Source: Chitinophagaceae bacterium
GTDB lineage: Bacteria > Bacteroidota > Bacteroidia > Chitinophagales > Chitinophagaceae
DNA length: 48,032 nt
Direction: 5' to 3'
NCBI GenBank assembly: GCA_025363355.1
Contig: JANYEB010000220.1
Location: 1 to 48,032, forward strand
Shown: piece by piece, positions 11,751 to 42,788 of the stretch
Layout: each line of letters opens with the position of its first letter
Numbering within the stretch: the first letter of the stretch is position 1
Made by a program: the position numbers and the translations under genes
The notes under the pieces: model-generated
The model's input: the letters and a program-made list of their open reading frames with translations, nothing else
The model's database searches: none
Told to the model about the DNA's origin: nothing

Positions 11751-13856
11751 CTAATAAAGATCTCCTCTGTTATCAGTAATATCTGCTACTTTCTTCAGTA
11801 ACTCATTACTGATTCTGCCTCCAGCACCTTTAATAGTATTATTCAACATTCCTTTAACTGAATTGGGATCTGATGGAGCCGCTGCTCTAGTTGCTATATT
11901 TTCAACTTTAACAACGTATACACCACCTTGACCAGCTATTGGTTCGCTAATTTTTCCTTTGTTAGATGCATTAAAAGCAGCACCTGCAAACTTGTAGTCC
12001 ATACCTATAATTGTATTAGCTGCATTTCCTGCCATTAGTGTGTCAACTCTTTGTACAGATGCATTATTACCAGCAGCAGTTGCAATTGCTTCTAAAGTTG
12101 TACCAGTCATTTTAGAAATAATTTGCTTTGCTTTCTTTTCGTTTTTAACAAGATTTTCAACTTGTGGACGAAGTGTTTGAGCAGATGGAACTCCTGGTTT
12201 ATTAACAGCTGTAATTACCCCAACAATATATTTATTATTGAAAGAATGGTATGTTTCTGTAATATCTCCAACACCTTTTTCATAAATCCATCTAACCAAT
12301 GTTCTATTACTTCCAAGCCCAGGAACTGTAAAATCTACTTTCTTAATTCCATCAGCTGGGTATGGAGTTTTATTTAATTTTTTTGCAGCTTCATCAAAAT
12401 CTTTTTTAGATTTTACAGAACTGATGAATTTACTAGCTTCGTTTTTTGTAGCAATATCTGTTTCGTTACTTAATGAAATTTGTTTAGCAAAATATGCAAT
12501 ATTGTATGCTGTACTTGTTCCTTTTTGACCTAACACTTCTACATAGTGATATCCATATTCTGTTTTAACAATACCTTTTGATCCTACTGGTTGAATGAAA
12601 GCAAAATCGTTAAAAGAACCAACCATTCTTCCACTAGTAAAGTAATCATACACGCCACCTTTAGCTTTACTTCCATCATCTTCGCTAGATTTCATACATA
12701 AAGAATCAAAGTTTGCACCAGCTTTAAGTTTCATTTCAATGGTATCAAGCAAATGCTTTGCAGTACTATCATCTCTAACTCTGAAAGACTGACCTGTTTT
12801 TTGATCTCTATCCATAGTTTTAATAAGTATGTGTCTAACTTTTGCACTATCAGCAATAGATCTAACACCAACCATTTTAGCTAATACATAATTGTTACCA
12901 TCTAAATAAGGACCAAAAACACCACCAACAGGTAATTTAACTAAAGTATCTTTTACTTGTTGTTTAATTTCTTTACCTGCTATATAGCCATTATAAAAAG
13001 GCATTTCAGAAGTATTTTTTGCAAAGAATGTTTCTGTATTTGTAGTAGAAGCAAGATCTGCTTTCTTAGTTTCAAGTTTATTTTTAACAGCATCAGAATC
13101 ACTTTTGCTAGGCACAGCATCAAAACTTACATAAGAAAAAGAACGAGTTTCTTCGTCTTTCTCATAAATTTTACTATGCTTTTTTCCATAAGCAGTTATT
13201 TCATCATCAGTTACTTTAATAGTGCTATCAGCTATTGTTGAATAAGGAACTGCAACGTAAGAAACTGTAGAGAAACTGTTATTGTCTGCTTGTTGTTTTT
13301 CAATCAACCATTTTGGAGCATAAGCAGCTTGAGATATAATATTATTGAACTTAGCATATTTAGCTTGTAAAATAGTTGGCTCAACTATACCTTCATAAAC
13401 ACCTTTCTTTTGATCTTCTTTTCCAGATTTTTTAAACTGGCTCCAAGCTTGTTTTGCTTTTTCAACATCAGCTTGACCAGTTTGTTGATCTCTAAACTCG
13501 CCCATTAAAGGAGAATTTGGTTTAAACAACTCTTCACTTAATTGCTTATCCGTACAAGTAAGACCTAATTTATCAAACTCTTGGTTTAATAAAATTTGAC
13601 TAACTTCTTGATTCCAAAGTTGACCAATCAAGTTTTCTCTTTGTTGAGCATTTCCTTGACTTGCATTTTCAACTTTCTTATCAAACTCTTTCCTATCAAT
13701 ACTTTTACCATTTACTTTACCAACAGTTGAGCCTGTTCCTAACAAAGAACCTCTACGGCTTAAACCATCTTGTAATATAAAGGCAATTAATGCTAGAGCT
13801 ATAACTCCACCAACAATCCAAGCTCCACGATCACGAATACTTTGAATAATAGACAT
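11751..13856 (-). CDS. PpiD/SurA-type peptidylprolyl isomerase, membrane-anchored
   Basis: A 701-residue periplasmic foldase tethered to the inner membrane. One transmembrane helix at about residues 13-30 (WIVGGVIALALIAFI) is followed by a SurA-N-like chaperone region. The latter holds VGKVNGKSIDRKEFDKKVE and extends to about residue 200. A parvulin (PpiC-type) domain lies near residues 340-450, starting AKVRHILIKT and ending GYHYVEVLG. The C-terminal third resembles a second, degenerate parvulin domain and ends at a dynein-like helical tail. It should help outer-membrane and secreted proteins fold. A well-spaced promoter precedes it and a terminator follows, so it is a single-gene unit. Confidence 0.92.
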   Translation of the reverse strand: MSIIQSIRDRGAWIVGGVIALALIAFILQDGLSRRGSLLGTGSTVGKVNGKSIDRKEFDKKVENASQGNAQQRENLIGQLWNQEVSQILLNQEFDKLGLTCTDKQLSEELFKPNSPLMGEFRDQQTGQADVEKAKQAWSQFKKSGKEDQKKGVYEGIVEPTILQAKYAKFNNIISQAAYAPKWLIEKQQADNNSFSTVSYVAVPYSTIADSTIKVTDDEITAYGKKHSKIYEKDEETRSFSYVSFDAVPSKSDSDAVKNKLETKKADLASTTNTETFFAKNTSEMPFYNGYIAGKEIKQQVKDTLVKLPVGGVFGPYLDGNNYVLAKMVGVRSIADSAKVRHILIKTMDRDQKTGQSFRVRDDSTAKHLLDTIEMKLKAGANFDSLCMKSSEDDGSKAKGGVYDYFTSGRMVGSFNDFAFIQPVGSKGIVKTEYGYHYVEVLGQKGTSTAYNIAYFAKQISLSNETDIATKNEASKFISSVKSKKDFDEAAKKLNKTPYPADGIKKVDFTVPGLGSNRTLVRWIYEKGVGDITETYHSFNNKYIVGVITAVNKPGVPSAQTLRPQVENLVKNEKKAKQIISKMTGTTLEAIATAAGNNASVQRVDTLMAGNAANTIIGMDYKFAGAAFNASNKGKISEPIAGQGGVYVVKVENIATRAAAPSDPNSVKGMLNNTIKGAGGRISNELLKKVADITDNRGDLY

Positions 13857-13888
13857 AAACTTATATACTTTATTTTTTTAAAGGATGG

Positions 13889-13919
13889 CAAAAATAGGGT
13901 AATTAGGGTATTGAACAAA
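13889..13919 (-). promoter_or_regulatory. Putative ppiD-like gene promoter
   Basis: On the minus strand TTTG (13916-13919), 19 bases, then TATTTTTG (13889-13896). This matches the Bacteroidota arrangement of a -33 TTTG and a -7 TAnnTTTG. The start codon is 33 bases further on. Confidence 0.6.
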
Positions 13920-14319
13920 CTGTGGAAAAAGTATTCAAACGCTTATTAGTAAAAGATTCTTATGTTAATTAGTTTTATTAAAAATGCAGGTAGATTTATC
14001 TGATAAAATATGTTAGTTTTTTCTATTCACATTCGTTTGTTGATAAACCACAAAACCTGTTAGAAAATTACAATTTCTAAAAATTAAATGTTATAAGATG
14101 TAGAATAAGTAAGGGTGTTTTTGGGTACTTGGTTACAATCAGCCAACTTGTATGCCAATTACACTAACTTAATTAACAGTTAATATCTCGACAGTTTATC
14201 AATGTTAAAAAACACATTACTTTTTATAAAGGTTGTTAAAAAGTGATTGAAACTATTGTAAACATTAAATTTTCTTGATTTAATAAAATGTGAATTAGAG
14301 TGAATAAGTTCAAGCTTAT

Positions 14320-14327
14320 TAACTTTG
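14320..14327 (+). promoter_or_regulatory. Putative nadA promoter -7 element
   Basis: TAACTTTG, matching TAnnTTTG, about 95 bases before the nadA ATG, leaving a fairly long leader. Confidence 0.4.
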
Positions 14328-14421
14328 CCTTGTGTGAATAACTAAGTTATAACGATATTAACACCCGTAATAATAGTAGTTGTTTTATATAAATGTATTA
14401 TTAAATACTATTACAAGAGAT

Positions 14422-15423
14422 ATGAACATTGACATTTCAAAAATAGAAGCAACAGGTTTTTTAGATATTGATATTAATCCAACAATTGATTTATTTGCAG
14501 ATATAAACAAATTAAAAAAAGAAAAGAATGCAATTGTACTGGCACACTATTATCAAGAACCAGATATTCAAGATGTGGCTGATTATATTGGTGACAGTTT
14601 GGGTTTAGCACAAAAAGCTGCTAACACCGATGCTGATATTATAGTTTTTGCAGGAGTACATTTTATGGCTGAGACTGCAAAAATATTAAATCCAACAAAA
14701 AAAGTGTTGTTGCCAGATTTAAAAGCTGGATGTTCATTAGCAGATTCTGCACCAGCTAATCTTTTCAAAGCCTTTAAGGATAAGCATCCTGAGCATTTGG
14801 TGATAAGTTATATTAATTGTACAGCAGACATAAAAGCATTGAGTGATATTATTTGTACATCGTCTAATGCTGAAGCTATTTTAAATAGTTTGCCAAAAGA
14901 CCAAAAGATAATTTTTGCTCCTGATAAAAATCTTGGTGGATATCTAAATAAAAAAACGGGTAGAAATATGTTGTTGTGGAATGGAGCTTGTATGGTACAC
15001 GAAATATTTAGTTTAGAAAAGATTACCAAGCTAAAAATTAGGCACCCTAAAGCTCAATTAATTTCTCATCCAGAGTGTGAAGAAGCTGTCTTAAATATTT
15101 CTGATTATGTTGGCAGCACAACGCAATTGTTGAAATATGCACAAACCAGCGATGTTAATGAATTTATTGTTGCAACAGAAACTGGCATATTGCATCAAAT
15201 GCAAATTAGTACACCTAATAAAACATTTATTCCTGCACCACCAAATAACAGCTGTGCCTGCAACGATTGTCCACACATGAAGCTAAATACACTTGAAAAA
15301 TTGTATATCTGTATGCAATATGAATTGCCAGAAATAACAATGAACGAAACTTTAAGAATTGCTGCTAAAAAACCAATTGATAGAATGCTAGAGATAAGCA
15401 AAGCAGCAGGTTTAGTAGGTTGA
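14422..15423 (+). CDS. nadA: Quinolinate synthase NadA
   Basis: A 333-residue [4Fe-4S] enzyme that condenses iminoaspartate with dihydroxyacetone phosphate to quinolinate in de novo NAD synthesis. Three pseudo-repeat domains are visible. [18 protein letters not shown] and [14 protein letters not shown] are diagnostic. Cluster ligands fit Cys104 (KAGCSLADS), Cys190 (WNGACMVH) and one of Cys278/280/283 ([10 protein letters not shown]). Length is normal. I chose ATG 14422 (MNIDIS) over a TTG at 14380 because homologues begin a short way before the ILAHYYQ region. Neither nadB nor nadC is beside it. It heads a 13-kb run of plus-strand genes. Confidence 0.96.
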
Positions 15424-15453
15424 TATTTTTAACATTAAAAATAACTTAAAAAC

Positions 15454-15461
15454 TATATTTG
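15454..15461 (+). promoter_or_regulatory. Putative promoter -7 element of the export operon
   Basis: TATATTTG, matching TAnnTTTG, 19 bases before the ABC gene ATG at 15481. Confidence 0.5.
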
Positions 15462-15480
15462 TGTTTTTGAATTTGATTTT

Positions 15481-17127
15481 ATGGAACAAAACGCACAAGA
15501 AAGTTTATTTAAATCATTAAGAAGTCTATTTAGAATATTAAAGTTAGATAAAAAAGATATTTCAAGTATTTACTTTTTCGCCATTTTGGGTGGATTAATT
15601 GCTCTAACACTGCCATTAGGAATTCAAACCATTATCAATTTTGTTACAGCAGGTACATTATCAACATCTATAATTGTTCTTATCATTATTGTTGTTATAG
15701 GTGTGTTTATAAATGGATTGGTGCAAGTGCGGCAAATGCAGATTACTGAAAAAGTAAAACAGAAAATATTTACACGTTACTCATTAGAATTTGCCAATAA
15801 ACTTCCACATCTTAATATAGAAAAATTAGATAAATACTATTTACCAGAACTTGTAAATAGATATTTTGATGCTCCTTCATTAACAAAAAGTTTAGAAAAA
15901 ATTTTGCTAGATGTTCCTGCTGCAATTATTCAAATCATTTTTGGTTTAATATTATTATCATTTTATCATCCCATATTTATTGGCTTTGGTTTATTTCTCA
16001 TAATTATTCTTGTTATCATTATTAAATACACATCTCCACAAGGTTTGGCTACAAGTTTAAAAGCTAGTGATTATAAATATGCTATTGCAAGTTGGTTAGA
16101 GGAAATGGCTAGAGTAATTAAATCTTTTAAGTACAGTAAAGACACCAACCTACATTTAAAAAAAGCTGATAAATTAGTAAGTGGATATTTAGATGCAAGA
16201 ACTTCTCATTTTAAAATATTGCTTGCACAATATTGGAGTTTAATCACTTTTAAAATTATTATAACTGCTGCAATGCTTATAGTTGGTAGTTATTTGGTAA
16301 TAGATAATCAAATAAATGTGGGTCAATTTATTGCTGCAGATATTGTAATCATTGCTATTATGAGTAGTGTTGAAAAATTGATTAGCAGCTTAGATAAAGT
16401 ATATGATACACTTACATCTATTCAAAAATTAAGTAAAGTAATTGATAGCGAAATTGAAATATCAGGCACAAGAGAATTACCTGAAATAAATACAGGACTA
16501 GCTATTGAATTTATTGATATAAATTTTGGATACGGAGAAAAAGAAGTGTTAAAAAATCTTTCTTTTAAAATACAACCAGGACAAATGATTTGCTTAAGTG
16601 GAGTTTCTGGTTCTGGAAAATCCTCTGTATTAAGACTATTAACAGGAGCATTTACAAATTTTAGTGGAACCATTTTGTTAGATAATGCACCAATAGGAAA
16701 TTATAGTTTAAAAAGTTTACGCGCTCAAACTGGAATTCTGTTAAGCCAGCAAGATATTTTTAATGGAACATTGCTCGAAAATTTAACAATGGGAAATGCT
16801 GACATTTCTTTAGATGAAGTTAATAAACTAAGTGACAAACTAAATTTAAAAGATTTTATAAAAACCTATAAAGATGGTTATGATGCTATATTAGACACGC
16901 AGGGTAAAAAAATAAATGCCAACATTCGTCAAGAAATATTATTGGTAAGAGCCTTAGTAGGGAAACATAGATTACTGTTATTAGAAAATCCATTTAATAA
17001 TTTAGAACCTAAAGAAGTGGTGGCTTTGATGGATTATTTGCAAAACGACAATACAGCAACAATCATCATTACATCTGATGACAACAATGTGAAAAGTAAG
17101 TGCGATATGATCATTAACCTTAAATAA
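15481..17127 (+). CDS. ABC exporter-type protein with a degenerate nucleotide-binding domain
   Basis: A 548-residue half-transporter, the inner-membrane part of a type I export system. Residues about 25-320 form a type-1 ABC membrane domain with hydrophobic segments near 27-55, 60-85, 150-185 and 255-300. There is no N-terminal C39 peptidase domain. The nucleotide-binding domain (about 330-548) has an intact Walker A, GVSGSGKSS (Lys380), and a Q-loop, LLSQQDIF. The remaining motifs are broken. The LSGGQ signature position reads INANI (478-482). Walker B reads LLLLEN, with Glu502 and Asn503 in place of the Asp and catalytic Glu. The H-loop His is Ser532. Nucleotide binding is likely but normal hydrolysis is doubtful. 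HlyD and TolC genes follow directly, so it still looks like an export operon. No substrate peptide gene is seen. Confidence 0.88.
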   Translation: MEQNAQESLFKSLRSLFRILKLDKKDISSIYFFAILGGLIALTLPLGIQTIINFVTAGTLSTSIIVLIIIVVIGVFINGLVQVRQMQITEKVKQKIFTRYSLEFANKLPHLNIEKLDKYYLPELVNRYFDAPSLTKSLEKILLDVPAAIIQIIFGLILLSFYHPIFIGFGLFLIIILVIIIKYTSPQGLATSLKASDYKYAIASWLEEMARVIKSFKYSKDTNLHLKKADKLVSGYLDARTSHFKILLAQYWSLITFKIIITAAMLIVGSYLVIDNQINVGQFIAADIVIIAIMSSVEKLISSLDKVYDTLTSIQKLSKVIDSEIEISGTRELPEINTGLAIEFIDINFGYGEKEVLKNLSFKIQPGQMICLSGVSGSGKSSVLRLLTGAFTNFSGTILLDNAPIGNYSLKSLRAQTGILLSQQDIFNGTLLENLTMGNADISLDEVNKLSDKLNLKDFIKTYKDGYDAILDTQGKKINANIRQEILLVRALVGKHRLLLLENPFNNLEPKEVVALMDYLQNDNTATIIITSDDNNVKSKCDMIINLK

Positions 17128-17131
17128 TTCT

Positions 17132-18496
17132 ATGGAAATTTTACAGCATAATATTGATGAGTTGTATCAGCAAAATGCTTTGCAATCTTATAAAAAAATA
17201 TACAGGATAAATAGACAAAGCAGTGTTAAACGCTGGTTGATAAGTATTCTTTGTGTTTCTGCCGTAGTAATGTTTTTACCCTGGACACAAAACATTAAAA
17301 CAAACGGCACCATCACCACACTAAAGCAAGAAGATAGACCACAAGAAGTGAACACAGTATTAAGTGGCAGTATTGTAAAGTGGTATATTAAGGAAGGAGA
17401 TTTTGTGAAAAAGGGAGATACTATTTTACAACTTGGCGAAGTAAAGGTTGATTATTTTGACCCAAAATTATTAGAAAGAACCAAGCAACAATTAGCATCT
17501 AAAGAACAAAGTGCAGCAGGTTATGAAAGCAAGGCACAAACAGCCAACACACAAATTCAAGCACAGCAAGAAGCACAGGTTTTAAAACTAGCAATGCTTG
17601 ATAATAAAATTAAACAACAGCAATTAAAAATTATTAGTGATAGCAACGATGTGATTGCCATTGCAAATGAATTAAGCATTTATAAACGCCAACAAGATGC
17701 AGGGAAAATAATGCTTGATAGTGGTGCCATTTCATTAGTTGATTTTGAAAAAAGAAAAGCCAATTATCAAAATGGTTTTGCCAAAAAAATAAGTGCCGAA
17801 AATAAGTTGGCACAAAGCAAACAAGAACTCACCAATTATAGAATAGAAAAAAATAGTGTGGTGCAAGAATATATTGATAAAGTTTCTAAAACCGAAGGCG
17901 ATAAGTTTGGTTCTTTATCAAGCCTAGCAACTACACAAGCAGACATTGCAAAACTGCAAAATATTTATGCCAACTACGACATCAGAAATAAACTCTATTA
18001 CATTATTGCACCACAAGATGGACAAATTATAAAAGCAAAAAAAGCGGGTATTGGCGAGTTTGTAAAAGAAGGAGAAATGATGGTGCAAATTGTGCCAACT
18101 AATACCAACTATGCTGTTGAAATGTTTCTAGAGCCAATGGATTTACCATTAATTCATATTGGTGAAAAAGTAAGATTTGTATTTGATGGTTTTCCTGCAA
18201 TTGTTTTTAGTGGATGGCCCAAAAATAGCTACGGAACTTTTAGTGGAAAAATCACAGCTATTGAAACTAATATTAGTGGCAATGGAAAGTTTAGAGTTTT
18301 GGTTGATGAAGACACTTCAGCACAAAATAAACCTTGGCCCAAAAACTTAAAAATAGGAGGAGGAGCCAAAGGCATTGCTTTATTAAAAGATGTAAAAGTT
18401 GGTTATGAACTATGGCGTAATATTAATGGCTTTCCGCCAGAATATTACCAACCAAAAATGAAAGAAGAAAGTAAAAACAAAGACGATAAAAAGTAA
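17132..18496 (+). CDS. HlyD-family periplasmic adaptor
   Basis: A 454-residue membrane-fusion protein linking the ABC protein to the TolC-like channel across the periplasm. One transmembrane helix at about residues 35-52 (WLISILCVSAVVMFLPW) follows a short cytosolic tail. The biotinyl-lipoyl-like half-motif is GSIVKWYIKEGDFVKKGD near residues 78-96. A long coiled coil runs from about 120 to 280, and the second lipoyl half is IIAPQDGQIIKAKKAG, near residues 290-306. The C-terminal barrel includes VRFVFDGFPAIVF. It starts four bases after the ABC stop codon and abuts the TolC gene without a gap, so all three are one operon. Confidence 0.92.
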   Translation: MEILQHNIDELYQQNALQSYKKIYRINRQSSVKRWLISILCVSAVVMFLPWTQNIKTNGTITTLKQEDRPQEVNTVLSGSIVKWYIKEGDFVKKGDTILQLGEVKVDYFDPKLLERTKQQLASKEQSAAGYESKAQTANTQIQAQQEAQVLKLAMLDNKIKQQQLKIISDSNDVIAIANELSIYKRQQDAGKIMLDSGAISLVDFEKRKANYQNGFAKKISAENKLAQSKQELTNYRIEKNSVVQEYIDKVSKTEGDKFGSLSSLATTQADIAKLQNIYANYDIRNKLYYIIAPQDGQIIKAKKAGIGEFVKEGEMMVQIVPTNTNYAVEMFLEPMDLPLIHIGEKVRFVFDGFPAIVFSGWPKNSYGTFSGKITAIETNISGNGKFRVLVDEDTSAQNKPWPKNLKIGGGAKGIALLKDVKVGYELWRNINGFPPEYYQPKMKEESKNKDDKK

Positions 18497-19879
18497 ATGA
18501 AATTCATTAATACACTATTATTTTGTTTAGTAGTATCGAATGTTATAGCACAACAAAAAGTGTTATCGCTTGATGACTTTATTCAACAAGTAAAGCAATA
18601 TCATCCTATTGTTAAACAAGCCAATTTATTGGTAGAAAAAGCCAAAGCAGAGATACTAATTGCCAAAGGAGAATTTGACCCAACCATTTATTTTGATGCC
18701 AGTAGAAAAACACTTGACGAAAAAAATTATTACTATTACACCAATCCAGAACTAAAAATTCCATTGCCCATTGGTAATATAAAAACAGGTATTGAAGATA
18801 ATGGTGGAGATAGAATGAGCAGTGAATTAACACCTGGAAAAAGTAGCTATTTTGGTTTTGAAATACCACTAGCAAAAGGATTAATTATTGATAAAAGAAG
18901 AGCTGCTTTGCAACAAGCCAAAATTTTTAAAAATCAATCGGAGCAAGAAAAATTAATGTTGTTGAACAACGTATTGTACGATGCTTATTCTACTTACATT
19001 CAATGGTTGGCGAGTTATCAATTATCCAACCTTTATTCAAATTTTATTACCATAGGAAAAAATAGATTCAGGCTTATAAAAATAGCTACACAAAATGGAG
19101 ATAGAAGTGCAATGGATACACTAGAAGCATTTACTCAATTACAGAATATTGAAATGCAACAGCTAGATGCCAACCTGAAATTAATGAATGCCAAATTGGA
19201 GTTGTCTAATTTTTTATGGAACGAAAAAGATAGCATCGTTGAACTAGCACAAAATATTATTCCAGAAGATAACCCAGCAAAATTTGATGCCAATAATTTG
19301 AATGTTGAAACTATTGTAAACAGTGGATTACAGCAAAATCCAACCATTCAATATTATAACTTAAAAATAGATGCTTTAAAAGTAGAACAACGTTTAAAAA
19401 AGCAAAATCAGCTGCCAACACTAAATGCTAAAGCTAATATTTTAAACAAAGATTATGCAGTGTTCAATGGCTTTAATACTGCATTTATTCAAAACAATTA
19501 TAAGTGGGGCATCGATTTTAAATTTCCAATTTTTTTAAGAGAAGGAAGAGGAGAAACTAAAAAAGCTGCTATAAAAATTAAGGAAGCCAACTACGAATTA
19601 AACTATAAAAAGCAAGTAACACAAACCAAAATTTTAGCCTACTACAACGAATACTTGCAACTGCAAAAACAATTCAAATTAGCACAAACATCTTTAAACA
19701 ATTACAACAGTTTATATAAAAATGAACAACTAAAATTTAGTAATGGGGAAAGCACATTATTTTTAATAAATAGCAGAGAAAACAAAGTAATTGAAACACA
19801 ACAAAAACTAACAGAAATTAAAGTAAAAATGTACAAAGCCAAATATGCTATTGATTGGGCTAGTGGTTTGATAAATTAA
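18497..19879 (+). CDS. TolC-family outer-membrane channel protein
   Basis: A 460-residue outer-membrane efflux protein. A signal peptide (MKFINTLLFCLVVSNVIAQ) precedes two outer-membrane efflux protein repeats: one around residues 25-230 and one around 260-460. The long helices are rich in Gln, Lys and Asn as usual. Its ATG follows the HlyD stop codon with no spacer, implying translational coupling. It should form the trimeric exit duct for the exporter encoded just upstream. The substrate is unknown. Confidence 0.92.
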   Translation: MKFINTLLFCLVVSNVIAQQKVLSLDDFIQQVKQYHPIVKQANLLVEKAKAEILIAKGEFDPTIYFDASRKTLDEKNYYYYTNPELKIPLPIGNIKTGIEDNGGDRMSSELTPGKSSYFGFEIPLAKGLIIDKRRAALQQAKIFKNQSEQEKLMLLNNVLYDAYSTYIQWLASYQLSNLYSNFITIGKNRFRLIKIATQNGDRSAMDTLEAFTQLQNIEMQQLDANLKLMNAKLELSNFLWNEKDSIVELAQNIIPEDNPAKFDANNLNVETIVNSGLQQNPTIQYYNLKIDALKVEQRLKKQNQLPTLNAKANILNKDYAVFNGFNTAFIQNNYKWGIDFKFPIFLREGRGETKKAAIKIKEANYELNYKKQVTQTKILAYYNEYLQLQKQFKLAQTSLNNYNSLYKNEQLKFSNGESTLFLINSRENKVIETQQKLTEIKVKMYKAKYAIDWASGLIN

Positions 19880-19942
19880 TTTTTTTACATCAATGCAACC
19901 TTTTACTTCCCTTTTGCATTTATAATATTAAGCAACGGTTTT

Positions 19943-20488
19943 ATGGAGTTAAAACTAATTATTAATGAGTGTAAACAACAACGCCTAACAGCACAAAAAT
20001 GCTTGTTTGATTTGTTTGCTACACAAATGTTTTTGCTGTGTAAACGATATTTAAAAAATTCTGAAGTTGCTGAAGAAGTGTTAATAAATGGATTTGTGCA
20101 AGTATATAAATCGCTACAAAAATTTAATTATGTTGATGATGCTAGCACAACAAGTTGGATAAAGAAAATAATGGTAAATGAATGTTTACAAGAACTTAGA
20201 AAAAAACAAAGTTTTCTAACAGTAGCAATAGATATAGTAGAGGATAAAACTATTGATAACACTGTATTTGAGAAACTATCACTAGAAGAAATTTATCAAT
20301 TGATAACACAACTTCCAACAGGGTATAGAACAGTTTTTAATTTATTTGAAATAGAAGGTTACTCACACAAAGAAATTGCAAGTAATTTAAAAATTACTGA
20401 AGGCACAAGCAAAAGCCAATTAAGTAGAGCCAAACAAATGTTGCAAGATTTAATCATCAAAAAAAATCAAGTATATGCAACAAAATAA
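19943..20488 (+). CDS. ECF-type RNA polymerase sigma factor
   Basis: A 181-residue sigma-70 family protein with only regions 2 and 4. Region 2 lies near residues 25-90 (CKRYLKNSEVAEEVLINGFVQV, a DAEDVVQDVF-type segment, then TSWIKKIMVNECLQELRK). Region 4 is near 120-172, with LPTGYRTVFNLFEIEGYSHK and the helix-turn-helix EIASNLKITEGTSKSQLSRA. It probably directs transcription of a small cell-envelope regulon. The next gene overlaps by 14 bases and encodes a single-pass membrane protein, the usual place for an anti-sigma factor. The gene begins 63 bases after the TolC gene. Confidence 0.93.
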   Translation: MELKLIINECKQQRLTAQKCLFDLFATQMFLLCKRYLKNSEVAEEVLINGFVQVYKSLQKFNYVDDASTTSWIKKIMVNECLQELRKKQSFLTVAIDIVEDKTIDNTVFEKLSLEEIYQLITQLPTGYRTVFNLFEIEGYSHKEIASNLKITEGTSKSQLSRAKQMLQDLIIKKNQVYATK

Positions 20489-21173
20489 AACTAAAATATT
20501 TACTGATATTGGTGCATTAAACACACTTCAAAATGGAGATGATTTTGATGCTAATAAAGTGTGGAATAAACTAGAACATAAACTCACAAAAAAGAAATCT
20601 AAAAAAATATATTGGATTTGGTTGGCTGCTTCAATGCTAATATTAATAAGCATTCCAGCATTTTTTAAAACAAATACATCGAATAAAAATATAATAGCAA
20701 CAAAGGTTGCTTTACCACAAAAAATAGCAGTTGATAATACAAGTAAACAAATAGTAGTATCTAAAAAAAGTGTAAAAAAAGAGGTTGAAAAACGTATAGA
20801 AAAACAACAGGCTTTAGCACTAGATACATTGCAAAATATTGTAGAAAATATTCAACCAATAGCACTTGATACATCAATTAAAATTTTGAAAGTAGAAAAC
20901 AAAACAGTTGTTACAAGTACTACAATAAAGCCAATAAGAAAGAAACTTAAAGTAGTTTATGCTGGTGATTTATACGAAGAAAATAATCAGCAAACTGCAA
21001 AACAAGAACTAGCAAAAGAACAACCAAGAAAGTCTTTCTTTAAATTATTTGAAAGCCAAAATAAAGAACCAGAAGAAACTACAACAACAGAAAATCAACC
21101 ACAACCCAATAAAACATTTTTAGGTTTTAAAACAAAACCAACTGCCACTATTTCTATCAACGAAAATCAATAA
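20475..21173 (+). CDS. Single-pass membrane protein, candidate anti-sigma factor
   Basis: A 232-residue protein with a short Lys-rich cytosolic N-terminus (about 1-45), one transmembrane helix (about 47-63, WIWLAASMLILISIPAFF) and a long, low-complexity periplasmic region rich in Lys, Glu, Gln and Thr. No zinc-binding anti-sigma motif (HxxxCxxC) is present and I recognise no named family. The call as anti-sigma factor rests on context: the gene overlaps the ECF sigma gene by 14 bases and has the N-in, single-helix layout. The secreted protein gene starts four bases downstream. The membrane topology is clear, the function inferred. Confidence 0.75.
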   Translation: MQQNKTKIFTDIGALNTLQNGDDFDANKVWNKLEHKLTKKKSKKIYWIWLAASMLILISIPAFFKTNTSNKNIIATKVALPQKIAVDNTSKQIVVSKKSVKKEVEKRIEKQQALALDTLQNIVENIQPIALDTSIKILKVENKTVVTSTTIKPIRKKLKVVYAGDLYEENNQQTAKQELAKEQPRKSFFKLFESQNKEPEETTTTENQPQPNKTFLGFKTKPTATISINENQ

Positions 21174-21177
21174 AACA

Positions 21178-22314
21178 ATGAAAAAATTATGTATGTTATT
21201 GTTGCTTGTAATAGCAACACAGCAGCTTATTGCACAAACAACTAGCGAGTGGATATTTGCAGAAGACAATCACAATAAACCAACAGTGGAATTCGAGTAC
21301 AACCCTATTCAAAAAAACATAGGTGTAAACTTTGAATTTTATAGTCTTAAGCAATTAAAATATTTGCCAAATATTGATTCTATTATGGAGCTAGTAAAAA
21401 ATGATTTGCAGTATTTATCAGACTCTTTAAAAGAAGATGCTATAACAAGAAAGTTAGAGTATGCACTTTACAATAAACCCAATAGAATTAGAATTATTAA
21501 TCACACAGAACAACCAACAGCTTATATTGTTCAAAACAAAGAATTAAAACAATTAAAAATTGATGCAGATACTTTAATGATAAAACTATCCGTGTTTAAT
21601 GAAGATAGTATCGGCTTCACAAACTATAACAAAGTGAAAACAAAGATTGCCTATCTAAAACCTGTTTACATTAAATTTTATTTGAGAAATTTAAAAGATA
21701 TCCTTGATTTAAAAAGTGGATTAGTTAGCGTTTGTTTAAATGATATTAAAGCAAAAAATGAAACGATATTGTCAACGAAACGTTCGAAAGATATTAGCTA
21801 TTACGGAAATGATATTTTTAAAAATGAAGCTTTTGAAAAAGATGTATACAGGTCTTGGAGCATTAAAAAGAAGGCATCAAAAGAACTTGTACCCACAATA
21901 GGTTTTGGTATGCAAAATGCAAATGGAGCTTGGCTAGCATCGTTTAATTTTGGAGCAAGATTAACATCAACATCTGAGTATACAGGTACCACTTACTGGA
22001 ATTTAACCTTAGATAATTATTATAATTTTTATACAGATGCCAATAATAATTTTATTAAGGATAGATATAGTTTTATTAATCTTCTGATGTTTCAAAAAGA
22101 GGAAAAACAAGACCAAAAAGGTTTTCAAACACAAGGTAGTTTTGGATTGGGTTATTTAATAAATCGTACAGGTAATTTGTTTGATAAAGGAACATTCAAA
22201 ATGTCGTTCCCCTCTTTAACAAATGGATGGCTATCTATTACTCCAGAAATTTTTTATAGAGATTTTTTCAAAAACACAACGCTTAGTATTAAGTTATCAA
22301 TTAACTATGAGTAA
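21178..22314 (+). CDS. Secreted protein of unknown function
   Basis: A 378-residue protein with a clear signal peptide (MKKLCMLLLLVIATQQLIAQ, cleavage likely before TTSEW). No family is recognised. The middle is polar. From about residue 235 to the C-terminus the sequence alternates hydrophobic and polar residues with many aromatics (GFGMQNANGAWLASFNFG, TYWNLTLDNYYNFY, LSIKLSINYE at the very end), which suggests a small beta-barrel ending in an aromatic residue region. It is the third gene of the sigma-factor operon and could be the envelope component that this system monitors or produces. Confidence 0.75.
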   Translation: MKKLCMLLLLVIATQQLIAQTTSEWIFAEDNHNKPTVEFEYNPIQKNIGVNFEFYSLKQLKYLPNIDSIMELVKNDLQYLSDSLKEDAITRKLEYALYNKPNRIRIINHTEQPTAYIVQNKELKQLKIDADTLMIKLSVFNEDSIGFTNYNKVKTKIAYLKPVYIKFYLRNLKDILDLKSGLVSVCLNDIKAKNETILSTKRSKDISYYGNDIFKNEAFEKDVYRSWSIKKKASKELVPTIGFGMQNANGAWLASFNFGARLTSTSEYTGTTYWNLTLDNYYNFYTDANNNFIKDRYSFINLLMFQKEEKQDQKGFQTQGSFGLGYLINRTGNLFDKGTFKMSFPSLTNGWLSITPEIFYRDFFKNTTLSIKLSINYE

Positions 22315-22431
22315 AAATTATTAATTGTTTTATAAAAACACTATTATTTATTTTAAATAATATAATAAATTTTATTATGCATTAATATATAATTACAAAT
22401 TAATATACACATTTTATAATACACAATATAT

Positions 22432-22485
22432 TTATTTTAAACAAATATAAATAAATAAAATAATATTTATATTTGTTTAAAATAA
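22432..22485. repeat. Perfect 22-bp inverted repeat upstream of an unknown gene
   Basis: Arms 22432-22453 and 22464-22485 are exact reverse complements, with a 10-base loop. The whole lies in a 186-base, extremely AT-rich gap. Each arm holds the promoter-like octamer TATATTTG (plus strand 22468-22475, minus strand in the left arm), so it could be a two-way promoter, an operator, or a hairpin in the leader of the next gene. Confidence 0.8.
22468..22475 (+). promoter_or_regulatory. Putative promoter -7 element of the gene at 22501
   Basis: TATATTTG, matching TAnnTTTG, 25 bases before the ATG. It is inside the right arm of the inverted repeat. Confidence 0.4.
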
Positions 22486-22500
22486 GTTAGTATATTATTT

Positions 22501-23211
22501 ATGAAACGCAATAAAAATTTTGTTGATAATAGCACAAATACAACTAAACAAATAGCATCAAAAAAGAAACTACAAACAAATATTCCTAGAAAAGATGCAG
22601 ACTTAGCCACCCTTGCAAAAGCTGTTGACGATAAATGGGCTACCACCCCAGCAATCACTTTATTGTGGATAGATGAACCAAAGTTTAAAATATTAGTGCA
22701 TAGTTTCAACACCAATTTAACCAATAGATTGTTGGTAGGCAGCAATCGTCCATCGCTAACCCAAAGCCTAGCACAAATCAATAAAAGCATTGACGAAGCT
22801 ACAGATTGTGTAAAGGTTTATATACTAAAAAAGTTTAAAAAAGCCAGTGCAAAAGCACAATACGAACGCTATGGCATAGTAAAAGAAGGCACTAATTATA
22901 GGTTGCCTTTTGATAATGATAAAAGAAAATTAGCTCTGCCACTAATGCTTGCTGCTATTAATGAAGATGGCTTTATCAACGAAGAATATGGAACAAATTT
23001 TTGGCAAAACATTAAAACCACATTTGCAAATGCCTTAAACAATAGCAGTGATATTGCAAAAAATGTAAGTAATAAAGTAGCAGCAAAAGAAGCTGATAAG
23101 CAAAAAATAAAACAAGTATTGGTATCAATAATATTATTGATAAAAGCCAATTATCCAACAACCCACCATAATGTTTTAAGAGAATGGGGGTTTATAAAAG
23201 AAAATTATTAG
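22501..23211 (+). CDS. Unknown helical protein
   Basis: A 236-residue, Lys- and Asn-rich, probably all-helical cytosolic protein with no signal peptide, no membrane helix and no known motif. The sequence has the block IDEATDCVKVYILKKF, then YERYG, then a polar loop and KRKLALPLMLAAI, and then a W near residue 168. This order resembles the N-terminal part of the protein at 167-1096, so the two may be distant paralogues. A perfect inverted repeat lies just upstream. The HerA-like gene follows 52 bases later but has its own promoter-like element. I cannot assign a function. Confidence 0.75.
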   Translation: MKRNKNFVDNSTNTTKQIASKKKLQTNIPRKDADLATLAKAVDDKWATTPAITLLWIDEPKFKILVHSFNTNLTNRLLVGSNRPSLTQSLAQINKSIDEATDCVKVYILKKFKKASAKAQYERYGIVKEGTNYRLPFDNDKRKLALPLMLAAINEDGFINEEYGTNFWQNIKTTFANALNNSSDIAKNVSNKVAAKEADKQKIKQVLVSIILLIKANYPTTHHNVLREWGFIKENY

Positions 23212-23227
23212 GAATGTTTTTTACTTA

Positions 23228-23235
23228 TATGTTTG
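23228..23235 (+). promoter_or_regulatory. Putative promoter -7 element of the HerA-like gene
   Basis: TATGTTTG, matching TAnnTTTG, 28 bases before the ATG at 23264. Confidence 0.4.
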
Positions 23236-23263
23236 TCATACTATTTAACAATTAAACTAACGT

Positions 23264-24799
23264 ATGCCAACACAAGAACAATTCCTCTCAACAGTAAACA
23301 CAGGCTATACATTTAAAGGCGATAAAGTAAAAATTGGAGTAGCAATGCTTGATGGTCAAGTAGTGCCTGGAGCAGATGTTTATTTACCATTAAAAACAAT
23401 GAATAGGCATGGGTTAATTGCTGGTGCAACAGGCACTGGCAAAACCAAAACCTTGCAAATGATTAGTGAGTGTTTAAGTGATAATAGTGTGCCTGTTGTG
23501 TTGATGGATATTAAAGGAGACCTTAGTGGCATAGCAGCTTCTGGCATTTTGAACGATAAAATTACAGACCGTTGCAATCATTTAAACATTACATATTCAC
23601 CATCAGCTTTTCCTACAGAATTGTATAGTTTAAGTGACCAAAAAGGAGTAAGATTGAGAGCCACTGTTACAGAATTTGGTCCTATTTTACTAAGCAAAAT
23701 TTTAAACTTAAATGATACACAAGAAGGCTTGGTTGCAATGATTTTTAAATATTGCGATGATAATAAAATGCCTTTGGTTGACCTAAAAGATTTTATAAAA
23801 GTATTGCAATACATAGCCAATGAAGGCAAGGATGAATTGCAAAAACAATATGGAAATATTTCTTCAACAAGCACAGGAACCATACTTAGAAAAATTATAG
23901 AACTGCAACAACAAGGTGCAGATATTTTTTTTGGAGAAAGAAGTTTTGAAGTAGATGATTTAATGAGAATAAGTGATGATGGACGTGGAATGATAAATAT
24001 TTTAAGGGTGATGGATATGCAAAATCGTCCAAAATTGTTTAGCACATTTATGTTGCAATTGTTGGCAGAATTATATGCAACTTGCCCCGAAGAAGGCGAC
24101 CTTGATAAACCCAAATTAGTGTTGATAATTGATGAAGCACATTTGGTGTTTCAAGAAGCTACAACTGCATTGCTACAACAAATAGAAACTGTTATCAAAC
24201 TAATACGCAGCAAGGGAATTGGCATTTTCTTCTGCACTCAAAATCCACAAGATATTCCTGCAAGTATATTGGCACAATTGGGTTTAAAAGTGCAACACGC
24301 TTTACGTGCATTTACTGCTGCCGATAGAAAAACTATTAAAACAGCAGCAGAGAATTTTCCTGAAACCGAATACTATAAAACCGATGAATTGCTAACGCAA
24401 ATGGGCATTGGCGAAGGCTTTGTAACCTTGTTAAACGAAAAAGGAATTCCAACGCCATTAGTGCATACAATGCTTTGCCCACCACGCAGTAGAATGGATG
24501 TATTGAACGATAATGAAATTGATACATTAATTTCAAAAAGCAAACTTGTTAAAAAATATAGTGAGGTTATAGATAGTGAAAGTGCTTATGAAATTCTTAG
24601 TAAAAAATTAGAAGCAGCAACACAACAGCAAGAAGAAGAAAAGCAAGAAAAAGAAGATAAAAAATCAACAGGAAAGGAAGAAAGTTTTTTTGATAATCCA
24701 ATTGTAAAAACTGTGGGTCGTACAGCTGCAAATATGATTACAAGAAGTTTATTAGGAGCATTGGGTTTAACAGGACGAGGAAAGAAAAGTTTGTTTTAA
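23264..24799 (+). CDS. HerA-like P-loop ATPase (DUF853 family)
   Basis: A 511-residue ATPase of the DUF853/YjgR group in the HerA-FtsK superfamily. Walker A is GATGTGKTKT near residues 51-60. Walker B is LVLIIDEAHLVF near residue 285. A sensor-like FFCTQNPQDIP follows near residue 325, and ALRAFTAADRKTI carries the arginine-finger-like Arg. The C-terminus (about 430-511) is a charged Gln/Glu/Lys linker and a short hydrophobic Gly-rich tail. The group is thought to act as hexameric DNA translocases or pumps, but the cellular role is not known. No NurA nuclease gene is adjacent, so it is not the standard HerA-NurA pair. Confidence 0.9.
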   Translation: MPTQEQFLSTVNTGYTFKGDKVKIGVAMLDGQVVPGADVYLPLKTMNRHGLIAGATGTGKTKTLQMISECLSDNSVPVVLMDIKGDLSGIAASGILNDKITDRCNHLNITYSPSAFPTELYSLSDQKGVRLRATVTEFGPILLSKILNLNDTQEGLVAMIFKYCDDNKMPLVDLKDFIKVLQYIANEGKDELQKQYGNISSTSTGTILRKIIELQQQGADIFFGERSFEVDDLMRISDDGRGMINILRVMDMQNRPKLFSTFMLQLLAELYATCPEEGDLDKPKLVLIIDEAHLVFQEATTALLQQIETVIKLIRSKGIGIFFCTQNPQDIPASILAQLGLKVQHALRAFTAADRKTIKTAAENFPETEYYKTDELLTQMGIGEGFVTLLNEKGIPTPLVHTMLCPPRSRMDVLNDNEIDTLISKSKLVKKYSEVIDSESAYEILSKKLEAATQQQEEEKQEKEDKKSTGKEESFFDNPIVKTVGRTAANMITRSLLGALGLTGRGKKSLF

Positions 24800-24839
24800 A
24801 TAAAAAAGAACCTATAAATTCGTTAACAAATAACTACTT

Positions 24840-25304
24840 ATGGAAATTTCTTCTCAAGAAAATTTATTGACAGAATTTGAAAGCAATTTAGTATTGGCAA
24901 GTTCAGGCCAACGATTTTTAAATTATATTATTGATGTAATATTATTCTATGGTTTTATGTTTTGCTTGGGTATGTTAATGGCACTTACAGCACCAGGTAG
25001 CTTATCTATTTTCGATGGATTTAAGGGAAACATAGTTAGCTTGTTATTTTATGCAATTTTTATGGGAGCAATAGAAACCATAACAAAAGGTCGTTCTTTA
25101 GGAAAGCTAATTACAAAAACAAAAGCAGTAAATGAAGATGGAACAGATATTTCAGCATCCACAGCTTTTGCAAGAGGCTTATCAAGAGCTGTACCTTTCA
25201 ATCAAATTAGTGCATTGGGTAATCCACCACATCCTTGGCACGACAAATGGAATAAGACTTATGTTATTGATATTAAAGATTCATTTATTGTAGAAAAACA
25301 ATAA
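24840..25304 (+). CDS. RDD-family membrane protein
   Basis: A 154-residue inner-membrane protein. The N-terminal SSGQRFLNYIIDVILFYGFMF has the family Arg and Asp at the start of the first helix, followed by a second helix near residues 60-75 (VSLLFYAIFMGAIETI). GRSLGKLITKTKAV is the family's conserved loop. The role of most RDD proteins is unknown; some are linked to ion transport. It lies 40 bases after the HerA-like gene and just ahead of the DUF2892-rhodanese pair, in the same direction. Confidence 0.88.
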   Translation: MEISSQENLLTEFESNLVLASSGQRFLNYIIDVILFYGFMFCLGMLMALTAPGSLSIFDGFKGNIVSLLFYAIFMGAIETITKGRSLGKLITKTKAVNEDGTDISASTAFARGLSRAVPFNQISALGNPPHPWHDKWNKTYVIDIKDSFIVEKQ

Positions 25305-25332
25305 ACTATTTTTATTGGTTTAAAAAAATTAT

Positions 25333-25551
25333 ATGAAAAAGAATATGGGCTCTGCCGACAAAATAATTCGTGTAATTATTGCTATTATTTTTTCTGTGTT
25401 GTTTTTCACACAAACTGTTACTGGTACACTTGGTATGGTGTTATTAATAGTTGGAGGAATTTTTCTGCTAACCAGTGTTATTAGTTTTTGTCCACTCTAT
25501 TTACCATTAGGTATTAACACTTGCAAAACAAAAGAAAAAAATGTTAAATAG
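25333..25551 (+). CDS. DUF2892 small membrane protein
   Basis: A 72-residue protein with the DUF2892 pattern: KNMGSADKIIRVIIAII starts the first helix, and the second helix is GMVLLIVGGIFLLTSVISF. It ends with CPLYLPLGINTCKTK, typical of this family. The same domain is the membrane anchor of E. coli YgaP, where it is fused to a rhodanese domain. Here the rhodanese domain is a separate gene, overlapping this one by 11 bases. Confidence 0.85.
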   Translation: MKKNMGSADKIIRVIIAIIFSVLFFTQTVTGTLGMVLLIVGGIFLLTSVISFCPLYLPLGINTCKTKEKNVK

Positions 25552-25855
25552 AATTATGAATTTTTTTGGGATGGGAACGTCAACTAACTTTTCTGAATTG
25601 ATGAAAAATGGAGCTGTTATTATTGATGTTAGAAGCAAAAGAGAATTTGATGGAGGACATATTGATGGTTCTATAAATATACCTGTAGATGAATTAACCA
25701 ACAATCTTAATAAGCTAAAAGATAAAGGCAAAACCATCATAGCTTGTTGTGCATCTGGTATGAGAAGTGCATCTGCTACATCTATTTTAAAAGCTAATGG
25801 TTACACACAAGTTTATAATGGTGGAGGATGGAGTAGCTTGAAAAATAAGTTATAA
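25541..25855 (+). CDS. Single-domain rhodanese-like sulfurtransferase
   Basis: A 104-residue rhodanese domain. IIDVRSKREFDGGHIDGSIN is the first conserved block, and the active loop is CCASGMRS with the catalytic Cys at residue 70. It should carry a persulfide sulfur in the cytosol. The start codon ATG 25541 overlaps the end of the DUF2892 gene, which points to coupled translation and a shared role, as in the fused YgaP protein. The 185 bases that follow are non-coding apart from the fumC promoter. Confidence 0.9.
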   Translation: MLNRIMNFFGMGTSTNFSELMKNGAVIIDVRSKREFDGGHIDGSINIPVDELTNNLNKLKDKGKTIIACCASGMRSASATSILKANGYTQVYNGGGWSSLKNKL

Positions 25856-25990
25856 CAAACCTTTGTTGTTTTTTAATTTAAAAGAGGATCTATATTTTTT
25901 TGAATATGGGATACTCTTGTTGTTTTCATCACTCCTTTTAGATTCTACCCTCAAATGTTAATTATCATATCAACCTTTTATTTCTTCAAT

Positions 25991-25998
25991 TACATTTG
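25991..25998 (+). promoter_or_regulatory. Putative fumC promoter -7 element
   Basis: TACATTTG, matching TAnnTTTG, 42 bases before the fumC ATG. The 11 bases TTACATTTGCA are shared with the valS and metG upstream regions. Confidence 0.5.
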
Positions 25999-26040
25999 CA
26001 CCAGTCAAAAAATCATCAATCATTAAATTAAAAATAGTTT

Positions 26041-27441
26041 ATGGAATTTCGTATTGAAAAAGACACAATGGGCGAAGTAAAAGTGCCTCTAAATGTATAT
26101 TGGGGAGCTCAAACGCAACGTAGTATTGACAATTTTAAAATTGCCCAAGATATTAATAAAATGCCCAAAGAAATTATTGCTGCATTTGCCTATTTAAAAC
26201 ACGCAGCAGCTTTAGCAAATAACGAATTGGGTGTGTTGCCAAACGAAAAGAAAGATGCTATTGGTGTTGTATGTAACGAAATTTTAGAAGGTAAATTAAA
26301 CGACCAATTTCCTTTGGTGGTGTGGCAAACTGGTAGTGGCACACAAAGCAATATGAACGTGAATGAAGTGGTGGCTTATCGTGCACACGTTATTAGTGGT
26401 GGTGCTTTGGGCGATAAAGAAAAATTTTTGCATCCTAACGATGATGTAAATAAATCGCAATCCAGCAACGATACTTTTCCTACTGCAATGCACATTGCTG
26501 CTTACAAAATTTTAATCGAAAATACCATTCCAGCAATTGAAAAATTGCGTGATACTTTGGCTGCAAAAAGCAAAGCATTTATGCACGTTGTAAAGATTGG
26601 CAGAACCCATTTTATGGATGCAACACCATTAACGGTTGGTCAAGAATTTAGTGGTTATGTTTCTCAATTAAACCACGGCTTAAAAGCTATTAAAAACACA
26701 TTGGCTCACCTTAGCGAATTGGCTTTGGGTGGCACTGCTGTTGGCACAGGAATCAATACACCAAAGGGTTACGACGTTTGTGTTGCAAAACATATTGCTG
26801 CATTAACTGGCTTGCCTTTTATTACTGCCGAAAATAAATTTGAAGCATTGGCTGCACACGATGCTATTGTAGAAGCCCACGGTGCATTAAAAACTGTTGC
26901 AGTTAGTTTAATGAAAATTGCCAACGATTTTCGTATGCTTTCTAGTGGTCCAAGAAGTGGTATTGGAGAATTATTTATTCCAGATAATGAACCTGGGAGT
27001 TCTATTATGCCTGGCAAAGTAAATCCTACACAATGTGAGGCTTTAACAATGATAGCAGCACAGGTCTTAGGTAACGATGTTGCTATTAATATTGGTGGCA
27101 GTATGGGTCATTTTGAATTGAATGTTTTTAAACCAATGATGATTTATAACTTCTTGCACAGTGCAAGATTAATTGGCGATGGCTGTGTAAGTTTCAACGA
27201 TAAATGTGCTGTTGGCGTTGCACCTTTGGAAGCAAATATTAAAAAACACGTTGATAATAGCTTGATGTTAGTTACGGCACTAAACACAAAAATTGGTTAT
27301 TATAAAGCTGCTGAAATTGCACAAACTGCACACAAAAATGGTAGTACTTTAAAAGAAACTGCCATTGCCTTGGGCTATGTAACTGCCGAAGAATTTGATG
27401 CTTGGGTAATACCTGTTGAAATGTGTGGAGAGATCAAGTAG
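26041..27441 (+). CDS. fumC: Class II fumarate hydratase FumC
   Basis: A 466-residue enzyme of the aspartase/fumarase superfamily, interconverting fumarate and L-malate in the citric acid cycle. The signature [11 protein letters not shown] is at about residues 319-329, and it carries the catalytic Ser. [14 protein letters not shown] and [11 protein letters not shown] are the other substrate-binding stretches, and the His of [16 protein letters not shown] is the second catalytic region. The length is as expected, and class II fumarases do not need iron. It ends the long plus-strand block and converges with cysS across a strong terminator. Confidence 0.97.
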
Positions 27442-27464
27442 TTGTTAGTGATTAGTTATTAATT

Positions 27465-27501
27465 AAAAAAGGGTTCAGCAAAAATTGCTGAACCCTTTTT
27501 T
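27465..27501. terminator. Bidirectional terminator between fumC and cysS
   Basis: A 17-base perfect stem (core AAAAAAGGGTTCAGCAA) with a 3-base loop, flanked by A and T runs. It can end transcription from both convergent genes. Confidence 0.9.
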
Positions 27502-27523
27502 AATTTTATACTTATGTTTTTGT

Positions 27524-29089
27524 TTATGCTAAACTCCAACTCATTTCTCCATCTTTTTCATCTTTTAAGTTAATACCAGCTATACTTAATTCATTTCTTA
27601 TTTTATCGCTGGTTACAAAATCTTTTTTTGCTTTTGCATCCTTACGTAGGCTTATTAAAACTTGCACAGCTTCGTCTAGTTTATTATTACTTACAGCAGC
27701 ATTCTCATTTCTTAAACCGAATACATCAAACAAATAATTTTGTAAAGTGTTTTTCAATAAGTCAAGTCCAATACTACTAATTTCTTCAGGCTTTATTTGA
27801 CCGCCTTTTAAAGAGTTTACAATTGTTGCCAACTCAAACAAATTGCCAATTGTTTTAGCCGTGTTAAAATCATCGTCCATACATTTCTTACAAGCATCTA
27901 CAATTAATCTTATTTTTCTGTCTAAATCAGTTTCTTTATTATCCTCTGTGTTATATCTATGTCCCAATTTAAAACCACTTAATTCGCCTATTAGTTCATC
28001 TAATGTTGGCTTTCTATCAGTCGGGTTTAATTGAAAATTCTTAATTAAATCAACCGCTTCCATCAAGCGTTTCAGCCCTTTTTCAGCATCTTGTAAGCCT
28101 TTAACGTTTATATCTAATTCTGAGGAATAGTGTGATTGTAAAAACAAAAACTTCAACACACTTGGTGCATAACCTTTATCAAGCAAAGGATGATTGCCAC
28201 TTACAAATTCCATTGGCAATATAGAGTTACCAAGGCTTTTGCTCATTTTTTGACCATTGAAATTTAGCATATTGGTGTGCAGCCAATATTTTGCTCCACC
28301 TTGTTTGCAGCTGCCTGTGTTTTGTGCAATTTCACATTCGTGATGAGGGAATTTTAAGTCCATTCCACCACCATGTATATCAAAAGTTTCGCCCAAATAT
28401 TTTGTACTCATTGCACTGCACTCTAAATGCCAACCAGGAAAACCCTTACCCCAAGGGCTATTCCATTGCATAATATGCTCTGGCGATGCTTTTTTCCATA
28501 AAGCAAAATCAATTGAGTTTCTTTTTTCTTCCTGTCCATCTAAATCTCTATAACCAGCCATTAATTCATCAATATTTCTTCCACTTAAAACGCCATAATT
28601 ATGTTGGTCATTATACTTTTTTACATCAAAATAAACCGAGCCATCTACTTCGTAAGCAAAGCCATTTTTTAAAAGTGTTTCAATCATTTCAATTTGCTCA
28701 ACAATATGTCCTGTGGCTGTAGGTTCAATGGTTGGAGGAATAGTATTGAAAGCATCCATAATTCTATGAAAACTTACTGTGTATTTCTGCACAATTTCCA
28801 TTGGTTCTAAGCTTTCTAATTTAGCCTGACTTTCCATTCTGTTCACACCTTCACCACGCTCATTTGTTAAATGTCCAGCATCAGTAATGTTTCTTACATA
28901 TCTTACTTTATAACCTAAAAAAATAAGATATCTATAAATCATGTCAAATGAACAAAAAGTTCGCAAGTTGCCCACGTGTGGTTCACTATATACAGTTGGG
29001 CCACACACATACAAACCAACGTGGTTGGGGATTATAGACTTAAATTCTTCTTTTTGTCGAGATAGTGTATTGTATATTTTTAAACTCAT
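27524..29089 (-). CDS. cysS: Cysteine--tRNA ligase
   Basis: A 521-residue class I aminoacyl-tRNA synthetase. The zinc-binding Cys and the HIGH-like motif are together in YVCGPTVYSEPHVGNLRTF near residues 26-45. FPHHECEIAQ carries further zinc ligands and KMSKSLGN lies near residue 285. The C-terminal helical tRNA-binding domain ends with DEKDGEMSWSL, usual in the family. A TATTTTCG element, one base from the TAnnTTTG consensus, lies upstream on the minus strand. The EEP-fold gene that follows upstream has its own start region. Confidence 0.97.
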   Translation of the reverse strand: MSLKIYNTLSRQKEEFKSIIPNHVGLYVCGPTVYSEPHVGNLRTFCSFDMIYRYLIFLGYKVRYVRNITDAGHLTNERGEGVNRMESQAKLESLEPMEIVQKYTVSFHRIMDAFNTIPPTIEPTATGHIVEQIEMIETLLKNGFAYEVDGSVYFDVKKYNDQHNYGVLSGRNIDELMAGYRDLDGQEEKRNSIDFALWKKASPEHIMQWNSPWGKGFPGWHLECSAMSTKYLGETFDIHGGGMDLKFPHHECEIAQNTGSCKQGGAKYWLHTNMLNFNGQKMSKSLGNSILPMEFVSGNHPLLDKGYAPSVLKFLFLQSHYSSELDINVKGLQDAEKGLKRLMEAVDLIKNFQLNPTDRKPTLDELIGELSGFKLGHRYNTEDNKETDLDRKIRLIVDACKKCMDDDFNTAKTIGNLFELATIVNSLKGGQIKPEEISSIGLDLLKNTLQNYLFDVFGLRNENAAVSNNKLDEAVQVLISLRKDAKAKKDFVTSDKIRNELSIAGINLKDEKDGEMSWSLA

Positions 29090-42580: not shown

Positions 42581-42752
42581 ACTTAGAATATGAAACGCAA
42601 TTTAATAGAAAAAATTATAGATTAAAACATATTTATTACAAAATTTTGTTAAACATTTTTTCGCAATAGATTTATTGAACCTTTTATAAAATTTTATTCT
42701 TAAAAATAGGCAAAGAAAAAGCGTCTTTTTTTCTAAACATATCCTTCAAAAC

Positions 42753-42787: not shown

Positions 42788-42788
42788 G

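Follow-up and report, generated by a model that had tools for sequence, protein, structure and literature searches.

A perfect inverted repeat of 22 bp per arm, placed directly in front of a gene and carrying a promoter-like octamer in each arm, raises the question whether the pairing itself has a function or whether it merely surrounds an ordinary promoter. We addressed this question for positions 22432-22485 of a 48,032-nucleotide stretch of contig JANYEB010000220.1 from a Chitinophagaceae bacterium (the window). The left arm (22432-22453, TTATTTTAAACAAATATAAATA) pairs with the right arm (22464-22485, TATTTATATTTGTTTAAAATAA) with zero mismatches, and the two are separated by a loop of 10 bases (22454-22463, AATAAAATAA). 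The arms are thus exact complements, as stated in the original prediction. Each arm contains one G or C, giving a single G-C pair in the stem. The right arm carries the octamer TATATTTG (22468-22475, plus strand), likely the Bacteroidota-type -7 element of gene 22501, and the left arm carries its mirrored copy CAAATATA (22442-22449, minus strand), which would point leftward. The loop had been described as separating the two octamers by 10 bases; it does separate the arms, but the octamers themselves lie 18 bases apart. The right octamer does lie 25 bases ahead of the ATG at 22501, as given, which corresponds to 33 bp counted from the octamer start. The stem begins 117 bases past the upstream stop codon and ends 15 bases before the downstream start codon.

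The palindrome resides in an intergenic gap (22315-22500, 186 bp) of extreme composition. With 7.5% GC (92.5% A+T) it ranks last among the 212 gaps of 80 bp or longer that a 621 kb sample of the genome contains, the next one having 18.3%. Likewise, the lowest 150-bp window in the sample has 7.3% GC and the next 14%. The flanking genes have a GC content of 28.4% and 32.2%. Short inverted repeats are abundant throughout the gap. The sample (621,507 bases, 17% of the genome) comprised the window, parts of two contigs carrying homologues of gene 22501, contigs taken by number, and contigs named by earlier searches for sigma factors or arm-like words; genes in it were called by a crude rule (ATG only, 90 aa). 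The best matches of the gap within the same genus had E values of 2.1e-5 (genome G003, contig 12), 1.3e-4 (G001, contig 99) and 0.0032 (G002, contig 171, at the contig end), and no perfect repeat of at least 8 bp was found around these three matches. Those in G003 and G001 are AT-rich stretches, each of which abuts the start of an unrelated gene or overlaps with it. An orthologous gap was not found in the same-genus relatives. The extreme AT content is the oddest fact left over from this analysis.

The original prediction held that 22 bases without a mismatch are much longer than expected. This is correct when judged against the composition of the gap. Dinucleotide shuffling of the 186-bp gap reached 22 pairs in 3 of 30,000 shuffles (loops of 3-20 bases), a figure that applies to this single gap, picked since the repeat had already been seen there, and not to the genome as a whole. 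Under a slightly stricter rule, none of 3,000 shuffles reached 22 pairs, the maximum being 18. RNA folding of 22425-22500 yielded -20.7 kcal/mol (z -6.84), which was equalled in 0 of 200 shuffles, and beyond the arms the pairing continued imperfectly with a 4-base bulge. Judged against the stock of perfect hairpins in the genome, the expectation does not hold, since perfect inverted repeats of 18 bp or more (loop 3-20) number 22 in the sample, four of them reaching 22 bp or more. The same-genus genome G003 contains one perfect repeat of at least 18 bp in a sample of 403 kb. Most of the perfect hairpins in our sample look like terminators: 17 of the 22 have a stop codon within 60 bp. A T run of 5-7 past the final G or C in the stem is present on at least one strand in 11 of the 21 other repeats and a run of 4 in three. 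The remaining seven have no T run longer than 3, and four of these seven lie within 60 bp of a stop. Absence of a T run alone is therefore not distinctive for 22432-22485. This repeat is set apart by other properties. It alone among the 22 has a start codon within 40 bp, it alone contains a TAnnTTTG octamer, and it has the fewest G-C pairs. Hence, what is rare here is the single G-C pair and the location on a promoter octamer, not the length. The observation is real and lies beyond chance for the gap.

Three further repeats were noted in the window. Perfect hairpins of 21 and 19 bp (27461-27505 and 42750-42790) are located at or just past stop codons, and in this placement they resemble most perfect hairpins of the genome. 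An inverted repeat of 26 bp at 7582-7648, 96% complementary and G-C-richer, lies between two minus-strand genes; it is probably a terminator and did not recur within the 621 kb sample.

Since such hairpins are common at gene ends, the palindrome might serve the upstream operon. The gene in front of the gap (21178-22314, plus strand) encodes a 378-aa protein to which no function was assigned, and it is the last of a run opened by an ECF-type sigma factor (19943-20488). Read-through RNA from the 21178 gene would form the 22-pair stem, and this hairpin would protect or end the transcript. The placement of most perfect hairpins near stop codons, the fold that is strong against shuffles, and the lack of a T run in other hairpins close to stops are consistent with such a role. 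Furthermore, a consensus scan of 21000-24500 detected no terminator-like site elsewhere (0, against 1.8 expected from shuffles). However, the same scan also misses the palindrome, which has neither the G-C-rich core with T-tract nor the short distance to the stop of a Rho-independent terminator. Like the terminator-like hairpins of its own genome it is intergenic and has a perfect stem of about 20 bp; unlike them it has one G-C pair, a distant stop and an adjacent start, and it shares the absence of a T run longer than 3 with seven of the 21. The energy of the bare 54-base hairpin (-17.6 kcal/mol) is the weakest among the 22 repeats, and its longest T run of 3 compares with runs of 5-7 in 11 of the 21 others. 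Comparison with relatives also argues against a 3'-end function. The upstream operon is well matched in the same-genus genome G002 (82% for the sigma factor, 52% for the last gene), where no perfect repeat of at least 9 bp occurs in the 200 bases after the operon. There, a facing gene ends 3 bases past the operon stop, so that the gap does not exist. The last gene has weak matches in G010, with no such repeat behind it, and in G008, where a 10-bp repeat occurs. The terminator suggested earlier is weakly supported: other perfect hairpins also lack a T run, but this one sits 117 bases past the stop and has one G-C pair. We regard a 3'-end hairpin as unlikely, though worth weighing.

The arrangement of the octamer points to transcription initiation. 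Promoters of the Bacteroidota primary sigma factor (sigma-ABfr) are described in PMC6847099 as having a -33 TTTG and a -7 TAnnTTTG element, and the same source places transcription starts in F. johnsoniae 4-5 nt past the -7 element. In our genome TAnnTTTG occurred within 80 bp of the start in 58 of 240 genes on the sense strand and in 18 of 240 on the antisense strand, and the octamer in the right arm lies at the usual distance. A smaller sample gave the same picture within 120 bp of starts (30 of 106 sense, 10 of 106 antisense), with 19 of 31 TAnnTTTG sites falling 10-39 bp from the start codon. The proposal that the octamer is a promoter element is therefore supported. Within the 200 bases upstream of 22501, the only TAnnTTTG is the one inside the right arm. 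A TTG is absent 17-23 bases upstream of the right octamer, leaving no match to the -33 element. Among the 106 starts, 11 combine the octamer with a TTG at 17-23 bp, as against 30 with the octamer. We treated the -33 element as optional because the motif was not identifiable in F. johnsoniae, as told in PMC7366714. Compared with the sigma-ABfr promoter as described in PMC6847099, TATATTTG agrees with the -7 consensus, lies on the sense strand with 25 bases to the ATG, and has a motif that is enriched upstream of the sampled genes of this genome; the site differs in the missing TTG 17-23 bases upstream and in being embedded in a perfect palindrome.

Applying the spacing of 4-5 nt from PMC6847099, transcription of gene 22501 is predicted to start at 22480-22481 on the plus strand, within the right arm. 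The gene's own mRNA would consequently not contain the hairpin, and the RNA 22480-22560 has no unusual structure (z 0.16). A hairpin could form in read-through RNA of the upstream gene or in DNA. The next gene downstream, a HerA-like gene at 23264, carries its own TATGTTTG at 23228-23235, and hence the palindrome probably bears on gene 22501 alone.

In the window, this HerA-like gene (23264-24799, plus strand) and a SurA/PPIase-like gene (11751-13856, minus strand) are 9.4 kb apart. Their matches in G003 (81% and 67% identity, respectively) are 0.6 kb apart, the HerA-like match lying beside a different gene. The intervening block contains nadA, an ABC/HlyD/outer-membrane-efflux set, the ECF-type sigma factor and gene 22501. 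The block 11751-23264 between the SurA/PPIase-like and HerA-like genes was either gained here or lost in G003.

Gene 22501 (22501-23211, plus strand) encodes a 236-aa protein to which no function was assigned and belongs to a patchy family. The taxonomic family was covered by 394 genomes; 10 of them have the gene family, counting its own genome and one marginal match, and five of the 10 carry it at two or more places. Searches of Pfam, NCBIfam, PHROGs and PADLOC returned nothing above cut-off, and a scan of genome_contigs with the protein gave zero matches. An AlphaFold model based on 6 sequences was mostly helical (mean pLDDT 78.1, pTM 0.51), and Foldseek against the PDB found no match at E 0.001 or better. 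The top Foldseek rows, at E 0.15 and above and mostly long-helix proteins, were taken as chance. The family is characterized by two predicted 53-residue helices and a REWGFIKxNY-like end. One paralogue is broken into two pieces, both of them matched and one with an internal stop (G000 contig 3, 9080-9792; loci L008, L009 and L011). A second one, on contig 146 of the window's own genome, is intact.

We then asked whether the palindrome accompanies the family. None of 16 homologous loci, which include two other places in the own genome, has a perfect arm longer than 12 bp in the 200 bp upstream (the longest being 12, 11 and 10 bp), and a conserved regulatory palindrome of the 22501 family was therefore rejected. 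Within this set the starts of L066 (146 aa left) and L067 (the marginal match) are unreliable, and L072 and L073 are front pieces of split genes, the set leaving out the rear pieces (L074 and L075). The flanking gene order of the window was present in none of the five homologue neighbourhoods that were read out of the 16; two of these five, one from G001 and one from contig 146 of the own genome, have the same divergent neighbour. The palindrome arrangement was found in the own genome alone. One locus, L064 in genome G377, has an 11-bp perfect repeat from 43 to 10 bases before the start. It consists of other letters than the palindrome of the window and has no TAnnTTTG inside, but its similar place leaves some room for an operator.

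Such an operator would be bound by a regulator dimer, or by two, on the symmetric arms, and the enclosed -7 element would thereby be blocked. The palindrome spans the -7 element and the expected -33 region, and a gene whose own RNA lacks the hairpin, as predicted here, is compatible with control at the DNA level. Arms of 22 perfect bases in a site of 54 bp exceed what operators usually need. Moreover, no second copy of the palindrome was found in the genome, and nothing comparable lies ahead of the two other own-genome places or of the homologous loci other than L064. In the vicinity, the sole regulator-like gene among the nine proteins scanned (15481-25304) is the ECF-type sigma factor of the upstream run. 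Taken together, binding of a dedicated regulator appears rather improbable.

The mirrored octamers, 18 bases apart, also suggest a symmetric two-way promoter. Each arm would provide a -7 element, and polymerase would bind in mutually exclusive orientations to transcribe either the gene to the right or an antisense RNA to the left. The expected -33 region of each octamer would fall on the other octamer, and mutual exclusion is described for E. coli in PMC12825309. As in the E. coli promoters of that account, an element recognised by a sigma factor is inversely symmetric. However, in the five E. coli two-way promoters tested in PMC12825309 the two starts are separated by 10-23 bp, and promoters of this kind are described there as sharing one -10 element, whereas the elements here are separate and more widely spaced, with predicted starts about 43 bp apart. 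A mirrored pair with a spacing of 0-45 bp was found at 2 of 240 starts, 22501 included, and leftward transcription would run through the upstream gene in antisense, with no gene to serve. We therefore consider two-way initiation quite improbable. An extended form, in which cruciform extrusion or a bound dimer decides whether the mirrored -7 elements serve gene 22501 or the leftward antisense RNA, is very improbable. Finally, the transcript hairpin that had been suggested is hardly credible as a leader hairpin in the 22501 mRNA that controls translation: the stem ends 15 bases before the ATG, but transcription would have to start left of 22432, yet the sole upstream TAnnTTTG within 200 bases, and with it the predicted start, lies inside the right arm, and the RNA downstream of that start has no unusual structure.

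Several other identities were discarded. A mobile or repeated palindromic element (MITE/REP) was rejected since no second copy was found in the 268 contigs of the genome (94.86% complete), the best other match having an E value of 0.027. Nor does the arm recur as a motif: when up to 3 mismatches were allowed, the 22-mer had 6 matches, two of which are the arms themselves, and its reversed control had 3. Counted with overlapping words over the 621 kb sample, 10-mers of the arm occurred 223 times against 197 for their reversals, and 12-mers 19 times against 12. A pattern of the exact core that allowed a gap of up to 24 bases was present in 4 contigs of genome_contigs, which we take to be Bacillota from their titles, and these matches were regarded as chance. 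No known RNA family matched 14000-28000 in Rfam at E values up to 1. As to target-site duplications around the gap and the gene, we found only five short two-copy direct repeats. Invertible promoters are a Bacteroidota kind of control; here, inversion was ruled out on anatomy, as the loop of only 10 bases is too short for a promoter.

We favor, with moderate confidence, an ordinary -7 promoter that lies within a one-off palindrome, the latter probably derived from template switching and its pairing most likely without a dedicated function. In this explanation gene 22501 would have an ordinary promoter of the Bacteroidota type whose -7 element lies in the right arm, and transcription would start at about 22480 within that arm, so that the leader has about 20 bases and no hairpin. 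The short imperfect inverted repeats of the AT-rich gap may have seeded template switching during replication, and a single event of this type could have produced the perfect repeat, copying the -7 octamer as a mirror image. Imperfect palindromes are made perfect through template switching in E. coli, as reported in PMC7202029, and PMC8794818 proposes that template switching creates perfect stems in one event. The palindrome shares with the quasipalindromes of these two sources the perfect repeat, the short loop and a location in DNA rich in short inverted repeats. It differs from them in that, for 22432-22485, our comparison did not find a relative with the ancestral, unswitched and imperfect state. 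That only 3 of 30,000 shuffles reached this length leaves room for selection on the pairing.

If the arms do act, they would constitute a symmetric promoter that is unlike the E. coli two-way promoters as described in PMC12825309. If instead the promoter is ordinary, the locus would be a clean case of a long perfect palindrome that lies on a promoter in an AT-rich genome and is not a conserved control element. It would then also be a caution that the length of a palindrome alone does not equal function.
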